Shown here: one piece after another, positions 14,393-16,515 of the stretch
Position numbering within the stretch: position 1 is the first letter of the stretch
Layout of the letters: each line of letters begins with the position of its first letter
DNA from: Pirellula sp.
GTDB taxonomy: Bacteria > Planctomycetota > Planctomycetia > Pirellulales > PNKZ01
Assembly (NCBI GenBank): GCA_013822735.1
Contig: PNKZ01000027.1
Span: forward strand, 1-64,000
Length of the DNA stretch: 64,000 nucleotides
Direction of reading: 5' to 3'
Program-made: the position numbers and the translations under genes
Notes under the pieces: generated by a model
What the model was told of the DNA's origin: nothing
Database searches by the model: none
The model's input: only the letters and a program-made list of their open reading frames with translations

Positions 14393-16318
14393 TTACGCGT
14401 CTTCTTCCAGGCGGATCGGTCGGGCGTCGAAGATTTCGAGCGCCTTGCGCACGAACGGGAGTTGCGCCTTCTCGCGCATCTTCTCGTGCCTCTCTTGTTG
14501 CGACGGGCCGCGCGGGCCGGTTGCCCTTTCGGTACCGACCGGGTCGTCAACGAGTGTAAACTCCAGTTTCAACGGCGCGCCGACCGCCGCCGAGAGCGCT
14601 TGCTGAAGTCGCGCCGCTTGGTCCGGGCGTTCGCAAACGTCCTTGTGAAACTTCTTCCGTTTCGCGAAGGCAACGATGAACCGATTGGGAGCCTGGAACG
14701 AAACGCCTTCGCTCGCTCGAGCGCTGTCCGCAAGCAGATCGTGAAAGTCGTTGAGCACGCTCCCCCATACGGCTTGCGCTTGACCGGCGCTGAGATGCAC
14801 CGCTTGAGTCGGAGAGGCGGATATCGGCGTCGATGACGAAGGCGGCGCTACGGCAGCGGCCGGCTTCTCGACCCGCGCGGCGGCCGGCACTTGCGTCGGA
14901 GCCGACGGAGTTTCAGTTACCCGTGCTGTCTCAGCTACTCGGGCCGCCGTGCCGTTTTTTTTTACAGCCTCGGCCATTTCCGCGGCCAAAGAACCGCCCG
15001 GCGGTGCGCTTGCACGCTCGGCAATAGGACGTTGCGACTCGGCCGGCGGTGCAACCGCACTCGCGGACGCGGCGGCGGAAAGCGACGGAGTCGCGCGAAC
15101 GGATACGGGCGCGGGCGCACTCCCGGCAGGCAATGTGCCGCTGCCGATCGTGGCGACGAGCGTCGCCAAATCGTCCAAGTCGTCGAGGCTGCAAATACGC
15201 ACCAGCGCAATCTCGACGACCGTGCGACCATGCGTCGTTTGTTTCAGTCGCCAAGCGGCTTGTTCGGCAATTTCTAGCGTCGCCAGCAGCGTTTGCACGC
15301 CGATTTGCGGGCCGACTTGCGCAACCTGAGCCGCTCGGCTCGGAGCGACATAGAGAAACGACGTCGACGGGCAACCGACCGCGGCCATGAGCAAATCGCG
15401 CAAGTAGCCGATGAGCTGATCGAGCAATTGCCCGACGTCGACCCCTTGGTCGACCCCTTGCCCGAGCTCCGCCAGCGCTGCGGCGGCATTGCGCGAGGTG
15501 AGGGCATCGACCAGCGCGATCAGTCGCGTATCGGCTGCGATGCCGAGGAGGCGTTGCACGTCGTCGACCGTGACTGTTTTGCCGCCCGCGGCGAGGATTT
15601 GCTCCAGCAGTGATTGGCCGTCGCGCATCGAACCGGCGGCACGTCGGGCCAGCAGTTCAATTGCTTCCCCTTGCATCTCAACGCCTTCGGCGACCGTGAT
15701 CTGCCGCAGGCGTTCGGCGATGGTCGCCGTCTCGATGCCGGCGAAATCGAAGCGCTGGCAGCGCGAGAGAATGGTGATCGGAATCTTTTCCGGCTCGGTC
15801 GTGCAAAAAATGAACTTCACATGCTCGGGCGGCTCTTCGAGCGTTTTGAGCAACGCGTTGAACGCGTCGCGAGAGAGCATGTGGACTTCATCGATGATGT
15901 AGATTTTGAAGCGAGCTCGGCTCGGCCGAACGTTCACGTTTTGCCGAAGCTGCCGGATGTCGTCGATGCCGCGGTTGCTCGCACCGTCGATCTCAATGAC
16001 GTCGACGTCGTCGCCCGCCGTGACACTCTTGCAGATGTCGCACTCATTACAGGGCGTGTCGGTCGGGCCGGTGACGCAATTGAGCGCTTTGGCGAAGATG
16101 CGCGCGGTCGAGGTTTTGCCGACGCCGCGGGCGCCTGTAAATAGGTAAGCGTGCCCGACCCGGTGCGAGTGGATGGCGCCGGAAAGCGCTTGAGCGACGT
16201 GCTGTTGGCCGACCAACTCCGCAAAGGCCTGCGGCCGATAGCGCCGAGCAACGACGACATATTCACCGGCAGGGGCGCTCGGTGCGGCCGCGTCGTCCGA
16301 AGGGATGAGATCGGCCAT
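14393..16318 (-). CDS. dnaX: DNA polymerase III subunit tau/gamma
   Basis: A 641-residue clamp-loader ATPase. The Walker A motif GARGVGKTST is at residues 61-70, the zinc module (CNECDICKS) near 90-100, and Walker B/SRC motifs are present (IIDEVHMLS, LSRCQRFDF). The frame is open to 16429, but the ATG at 16318 (MADLIPSDDAA) gives a normal N-terminus. An Ala/Pro-rich linker at about 410-530 precedes the C-terminal tau domain. A run of nine A on the coding strand (14955-14963, codons 452-455) sits in this linker. Slippage in either direction meets a stop within about 12 codons, giving a gamma-like product of about 460 residues. It lies directly downstream of the SRP RNA. Confidence 0.97.
   Translation of the reverse strand: MADLIPSDDAAAPSAPAGEYVVVARRYRPQAFAELVGQQHVAQALSGAIHSHRVGHAYLFTGARGVGKTSTARIFAKALNCVTGPTDTPCNECDICKSVTAGDDVDVIEIDGASNRGIDDIRQLRQNVNVRPSRARFKIYIIDEVHMLSRDAFNALLKTLEEPPEHVKFIFCTTEPEKIPITILSRCQRFDFAGIETATIAERLRQITVAEGVEMQGEAIELLARRAAGSMRDGQSLLEQILAAGGKTVTVDDVQRLLGIAADTRLIALVDALTSRNAAAALAELGQGVDQGVDVGQLLDQLIGYLRDLLMAAVGCPSTSFLYVAPSRAAQVAQVGPQIGVQTLLATLEIAEQAAWRLKQTTHGRTVVEIALVRICSLDDLDDLATLVATIGSGTLPAGSAPAPVSVRATPSLSAAASASAVAPPAESQRPIAERASAPPGGSLAAEMAEAVKKNGTAARVAETARVTETPSAPTQVPAAARVEKPAAAVAPPSSSTPISASPTQAVHLSAGQAQAVWGSVLNDFHDLLADSARASEGVSFQAPNRFIVAFAKRKKFHKDVCERPDQAARLQQALSAAVGAPLKLEFTLVDDPVGTERATGPRGPSQQERHEKMREKAQLPFVRKALEIFDARPIRLEEDA
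14955..14963 (-). promoter_or_regulatory. A9 slippage site in dnaX
   Basis: The coding strand reads GTA AAA AAA AAC GGC, that is, nine consecutive A (nine T on the plus strand). One extra A puts the ribosome into a frame ending at TGA 12 codons later. One fewer leads to TAG after about 9 codons. Thermus dnaX uses an A9 run for transcriptional slippage and Escherichia coli dnaX uses A-AAA-AAG frameshifting, both to make gamma. The position fits that role. Actual slippage here is inferred. Confidence 0.7.
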
Positions 16319-16397
16319 GAGCTCAAGGGGGAGTAGGGAAGGGAAGGGGCGAAACAAGACGAACGACTCCGCCTTCTCCCCTACCGCCTTACTTAAT

Positions 16398-16515
16398 CGT
16401 CGGCCTTCGATGAGAGACCCGCCGCACATGAAGCTTACCGCTTATGGCTGCTGGATTTCTCCCCTGACCAGGTTCACAGGTCCCCATTGCGGGGGCCTCT
16501 CATCGAAGGCCGACG
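16398..16515 (-). ncRNA. ffs: Signal recognition particle RNA, small bacterial type
   Basis: On the minus strand the segment contains GTGAACCTGGTCAGG, then GGAGAAATCC, then AGCAGCCATAAGCGG. These are the conserved SRP Alu-less domain IV loop regions. The apical stem is GGA/TCC closed by a GAAA tetraloop. The ends are formed by a 19-base perfect inverted repeat at 16398-16416 and 16497-16515. The length of about 118 bases fits 4.5S-type RNA. It targets nascent membrane proteins with Ffh. It lies directly upstream of dnaX on the same strand, as in Bacillus. Exact ends are approximate. Confidence 0.92.

Follow-up and report, generated by a model that had tools for sequence, protein, structure and literature searches.

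Can the run of nine adenines (A9) in a planctomycete dnaX gene let a single reading frame give rise to two DnaX proteins, the full-length tau and a shorter gamma, and, if so, is the frame changed by the RNA polymerase or by the ribosome? The window, i.e., the whole 64,000-nt stretch of Pirellula sp. DNA analysed here, carries such a run. We propose, with a probability of roughly 0.8, that A9 is a programmed recoding site where slippage of the RNA polymerase would yield both tau and gamma; the slippage itself, the presence of gamma in the cell, and its role are what we infer from the sequence. In the proposed model, the RNA polymerase would slip on A9 and release transcripts with varying numbers of A. 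Those with 9 or 9 + 3n A's would encode the full 641-residue tau, and those with any other number would reach a stop within ~20 nt, in either shifted frame, giving a 460- to 462-residue gamma that would retain the clamp-loader core without the C-terminal tau domain.

Position of the A9 run within dnaX

The features on which the model is based are the following:

14393 to 16429, minus strand: dnaX open reading frame, taken from the far-upstream start (ATG at 16429)
15191 to 16261, minus strand: clamp-loader core, DnaX N-terminal model (TIGR02397, residues 57-413)
14955 to 14963, minus strand: A9 run, proposed RNA polymerase slippage site (T9 on the plus strand)
14935 to 14937, minus strand: TAG terminating the frame with one A fewer, starting 17 nt past the run
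14931 to 14933, minus strand: TGA terminating the frame with one A more, which is also the ribosomal -1 frame, starting 21 nt past the run
14396 to 14953, minus strand: tau tail, predicted by alignment and modelling to be a linker followed by a folded C-terminal domain (about tail residues 46-186), missing in the short form

The gene satisfies the DnaX equivalog model TIGR02397 (439.2 bits versus a cut-off of 250), and the ATG at 16318 is the more likely start compared to that at 16429. The run reads GTA AAA AAA AAC, from the last base of GTA to the second base of AAC, and is located at nt 1467 of 2037 (~72%), between the core and the tau tail and downstream of Pfam domain III of DnaX, which ends at residue 425. 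It covers codons 489-492 counted from ATG 16429 and codons 452-455 from ATG 16318; coordinates, frame, and the 16318 start thus bear out the sequence-only reading, which had placed A9 at codons 452-455 in the linker. That reading had also announced a stop in each shifted frame, and both were located, TGA (one A more) 21 nt and TAG (one A fewer) 17 nt after the run; for its short form of about 460 residues, we computed 462 and 460 aa from the 16318 start, next to 641 aa for tau. The predicted C termini of these short products are KKKRHGGPSS with one A more and KKTARRPE with one A fewer. The position of the run, the close stops in both shifted frames, and a tau-like tail beyond the run together support its suggestion that the site may serve gamma production.

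The tau tail is conserved among relatives in the alignment. Pfam model PF20964 (DnaX_C) scored 15.2 bits against it, below the 26.2 cut-off, with 4 of 13 tails at an E value of ≤1, and a PDB sequence search with the tail gave no match. When a structure model of the tail (pLDDT 67.8) was submitted to Foldseek, E. coli tau chains came at ranks 1, 2, and 4 (E values of 3e-3 to 6e-3, with poor rmsd), and VIA-align compared the tail to E. coli tau with Z scores of 6.8 and 6.6 over 75 residues, unrelated rows scoring higher, up to 9.6 (SirA). The fold comparison supports a likeness to E. coli tau without proving it. Following what is described for E. coli in the portion of PMC3290774 considered here, absence of the tail would remove polymerase binding from the short form.

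Conservation of the run in Planctomycetota

Base composition alone does not make the A9 run special: the window holds 2 overlapping A8 matches versus 2.33 expected in shuffles, and the 6.88-Mb genome holds 10 overlapping A9 matches, corresponding to 8 distinct A/T runs of at least 9. Three of the seven other long A/T runs of the genome adjoin a terminator-like inverted repeat, as read by eye from their flanks. Another A9 of the same genome (L011, C20:13994-14002) lies within a gene with the Pfam domain CTD7 of ABC-three-component systems, where, unlike in dnaX, stops in the shifted frames come only after 74 and 289 nt.

What exceeds chance is the conservation in relatives, the check that the sequence-only reading had put forward: the run is kept in 7/7 genomes of the family (own genome included, all A9), in 110/134 of the order, and in 36/46 of the rest of the class. 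The search of the order covered 146 genomes. Of the 143 with a match, 134 were usable after dropping 5 with paralogues only, 1 with a cut-off gene, and 3 with genes ending before the linker. At least nine A's follow the core in the 110 genes (A9 in 73, A10 in 36, A11 in 1); one further gene has A8, and 23/134 are without any run of at least 8. Two second dnaX copies, both with A9, were kept out of the count (L212 in G047 and L213 in G035), which may be true duplicates or contamination. In the class outside the order, one gene has A8 and nine have shorter runs. Four genomes of one genus of this class (g90; L215, L325, L282, and L286) carry two A9/A10 runs in the linker, with starts 12 nt apart.

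Outside the class, an even sample of the phylum gave runs of at least nine A's within the stretch searched in 4/51 usable loci, one of them (L250) far downstream, and the order of G147 gave 25/41 dnaX loci. Outside Planctomycetota, where the control came from a broad related-locus scan with mostly Firmicutes matches, the figure was 4/50 usable dnaX loci, many of them AT-rich (the planctomycete locus L051 was left out). As a within-gene control, 130 complete dnaX genes of the order showed no run of at least nine A's inside the core and no run of at least nine T's anywhere. When the run is mapped on a FastTree phylogeny of 141 cores, 16 changes account for its presence, compared to a shuffled mean of 25.9. 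The genes of the order without a run, the A8 gene counted in, are scattered over ~16 places of this tree, which counts against programmed slippage.

Selection on the stops in both shifted frames

The distance from the run to the first stop was compared with a null obtained by synonymous recoding of the downstream sequence with each gene's own codon usage, for 110 genes of the order with a run of at least 8 (the out-of-frame L188 was left out). The median first stop was at 6 nt in the insertion frame, 14 nt in the deletion frame, and 17 nt for the later of both, versus expectations of 71, 96.5, and 164.5 nt, respectively. The rank of the later stop was below 0.5 in 19/19 families (Wilcoxon over 67 genera, p = 1.5e-11). 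Taken frame by frame, the rank was below half in 16/19 families for the insertion frame and in 17/19 for the deletion frame, with mean ranks over genera of 0.27 (p = 3e-8) and 0.42 (p = 0.011), respectively, the insertion signal being the stronger. In 95/110 genes, each shifted frame is closed within 60 nt; in the other 15/110, one or both of them remain open beyond 60 nt, a point against programmed slippage. In the class outside the order (36 genes), the stop distance was 14.5 nt versus 125.75 nt expected (p = 5.6e-7). As many as 33 different residue pairs give rise to the insertion-frame stop. Altogether, the stops in both shifted frames are under selection across the order.

RNA polymerase slippage or ribosomal frameshifting

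The most serious alternative, which we nonetheless regard as unlikely, is that gamma arises at the ribosome, through a -1 shift on the A_AAA_AAA or A_AAA_AAC contained in the run and termination at the TGA. Ribosomal -1 frameshifting is expected to rely on a heptamer in fixed phase and a stop in the insertion frame, often with a Shine-Dalgarno element and a stem-loop, whereas under slippage one expects a long run whose phase is free, a stop in each of the two shifted frames, and no elements that stimulate the ribosome. Both heptamers are in frame in the window, which holds them in place of the E. coli-type A_AAA_AAG, and an A9 contains the shift-prone A_AAA_AAA in every phase. Moreover, the insertion-frame stop, the one more strongly selected, is the only one that -1 shifting requires. 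Seven bases would, however, suffice for a heptamer, yet the order has 110 genes with at least nine A's, one with A8, and two whose longest run is A7; and the deletion-frame stop, of no use to -1 shifting, is nearer than expected in most families (17/19).

The stimulators provide a further distinction. At the window run, folding z scores of -0.01 and -0.39 indicated no nearby RNA structure, and there was no Rfam match. At the sites of the order with at least nine A's, the 60 nt downstream gave a mean z of -0.12 versus -0.20 for the control (n = 109) and, with n = 108, a mean z of -0.16, i.e., no structure excess, and Shine-Dalgarno-like elements were found at 2/109 with a narrow pattern (4.5 expected), i.e., no excess; a looser pattern, for which no expectation was computed, gave 13/108.

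The positive control came from the order of G147, where 12 dnaX genes (L258, L317, L312, L314, L306, L300, L304, L315, L320, L321, L354, and L313) carry an in-frame X_XXA_AAA heptamer (G_GGA_AAA, A_AAA_AAA, or C_CCA_AAA), mostly with the frame-0 stop one codon past it. These loci, chosen after inspection of the sites, show that heptamers with frameshift signals do occur in planctomycete dnaX, in another order than that of the window, which speaks for the ribosomal explanation. A stem-loop lies downstream at most of them, and their mean folding z was -2.16 versus 0.44 for their own control, and -2.11 versus -0.16 for the sites with at least nine A's (p = 4e-5); Shine-Dalgarno-like elements were present at 7/12 (1.6 expected) versus 13/108 with the looser pattern at the sites with at least nine A's (p = 6e-4). 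Within the order of G147, the A9-A10 genes with tau in frame had a mean z of -0.68 and Shine-Dalgarno-like elements at 3/16 (2.3 expected), and A9-A10 genes with tau out of frame, a group that also counts L188 and L233, had a z of -0.34 and such elements at 1/10 (1.1 expected). Since the A9-A10 sites are devoid of the stimulators that the same tests detect at heptamers, slippage is favoured for the window.

Among the genes of the order without a run, 8/23 have an in-frame X_XXA_AAN or X_XXT_TTN, with G_GGA_AAG in all four g18 genomes. We do not claim that heptamers replace the run in these genes; L042, examined by eye, has no close stop in the -1 frame.

Nucleotides, not the peptide, are conserved

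It is much less probable still that the run is kept for another cause, such as lysines in the linker or a mutable tract for phase variation, with no programmed gamma, even if the persistence of some lineages without the run would agree with it. Across the order, the A9 runs stand in phase 2 in 39 genes, phase 1 in 27, and phase 0 in 7, and the peptides they encode differ (AKKK, EKKT, VKKN, KKK, and others). Outside the run, lysine accounts for 163/9349 linker codons, and AAG is used 1030 times versus 628 for AAA in the rest of the genes. As phase and residues vary and linker lysine is otherwise rare, it is the nucleotides that are kept and not the peptide, which rules out a lysine-rich linker as the reason for the run; selection on stops in both frames likewise argues against any cause unrelated to recoding. 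A phase-variation tract would be expected often out of frame, and this was found in 1/111 genes of the order with a run of at least 8 (L188). The out-of-frame tau tails described below also count against it.

Finally, homopolymers are error-prone, and composition, which alone would permit a chance origin, leads one to expect a few long runs in the window. Conservation (A9 in 7/7 genomes of the family, A9-A11 in 110/134 of the order) nevertheless refutes both an error of sequencing or assembly and a run arisen by chance, whose probability is negligible.

Out-of-frame tau tails and exchange of mechanism

With a profile derived from 132 tails in frame 0, all from the window's own order (the short frame-0 end of L188 among them), the tau tail was located out of frame in 16/276 loci, 15 times in the -1 frame and once in the +1 frame; in 36 loci, the profile matched no tail. 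Those 16 planctomycete loci need recoding to make tau. The tail follows A9 or A10 in nine of them and a heptamer in six, and neither precedes it in L252.

The A9/A10 loci with an out-of-frame tail are L303, L307 (motif evidence only), L351, L352, L357, L358, and L360 (family f78), together with L233, L293, and L188, and slippage there would make tau, not gamma. L188, from the window's order, has A10 with the tail out of frame, whereas its congener L193 has A11 with the tail in frame; an assembly error is possible for L188. The 12 heptamer loci are candidate -1 ribosomal frameshift sites, which would also make tau. The profile supports an out-of-frame tail for L300, L306, L315, L320, L321 (E value of only 0.033), and L354; such a tail was seen by eye in the genomes of L258 and L317, and L304, L312, L313, and L314 are without such support.

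Two loci of family f30, L252 (G185) and L260 (G154), combine an early frame-0 stop with tau-tail-like sequence in the -1 frame and have neither an A run nor an obvious heptamer; AGGAGG lies just upstream in L252, the only one of the two with a profile match. In other classes, L245, L247, and L232 are short dnaX genes with no tau tail seen, closely followed by a frame that we take to be YbaB-like.

From these layouts, we consider it likely that the dnaX gene of Planctomycetota has retained a site for tau/gamma recoding from class to class while swapping both the machinery and the default product among three modes. In the first, found in the window's order and class, slippage would act on A9-A10 with tau in frame. 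In the second, mainly in family f78, the run is A10, tau is out of frame, and slippage would make tau. The third mode concerns f23 together with part of f74 and f77: gamma would be the default there, and tau would result from a -1 shift of the ribosome on a heptamer (G_GGA_AAA, A_AAA_AAA, or C_CCA_AAA) accompanied by a stem-loop and in many cases by a Shine-Dalgarno element. If true, slippage and ribosomal frameshifting replace each other inside one order.

Comparison with known recoding systems

The sections of PMC3290774 considered here state that frameshift signatures are absent from dnaX of most other bacteria, and these sections, with those of PMC5009743, present the importance of gamma to the replisome as disputed. 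A search for planctomycete dnaX recoding among openly licensed PubMed Central papers found nothing on point. The site in the window thus apparently adds a planctomycete case to the known Thermus-type recoding, and the exchange of mechanism and default product within the phylum appears to be the more novel part. Retention of the site through most of the order and class, with scattered losses, would argue for a selected role of gamma in planctomycetes, and these losses offer natural comparisons with and without the run. In the neighbouring order, two mechanisms that intervene at different stages of gene expression would achieve the same result at the same position, which would make this order a natural series for comparison.

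The GeneTack study (PMC3711429, in the parts consulted) described two-ORF dnaX in 17 genes from 12 genera, 12 of them with a poly-A of 7-10, and its main text, as far as covered here, names no planctomycete for dnaX. The poly-A stands at the same place as in the window. Tau is in frame 0 in the window itself, but planctomycete relatives again show the layout that puts it out of frame.

The sequence-only reading had invoked both E. coli and Thermus, and the two comparisons fared differently. Like E. coli dnaX, the window gene would use a single reading frame for two forms of DnaX, of which the shorter is without the C-terminal part; E. coli fits less well, as it uses -1 ribosomal frameshifting on A_AAA_AAG with a Shine-Dalgarno element and a stem-loop, the stimulators absent at the A9-A10 sites. 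The better fit is Thermus thermophilus, where an A9 in dnaX undergoes transcriptional slippage (Larsen et al. 2000, as cited in the available parts of PMC1088944 and PMC5009743). In both genes, the coding strand has the A9, tau is read in frame 0, and each shifted frame soon meets a stop. The run of Thermus lies seven-eighths through the gene, according to the part of PMC1088944 consulted, compared to ~72% in the window. In Thermus, gamma has been shown by experiment to come from slipped transcripts; in the window, which belongs to a different phylum, the same slippage is predicted from the sequence.
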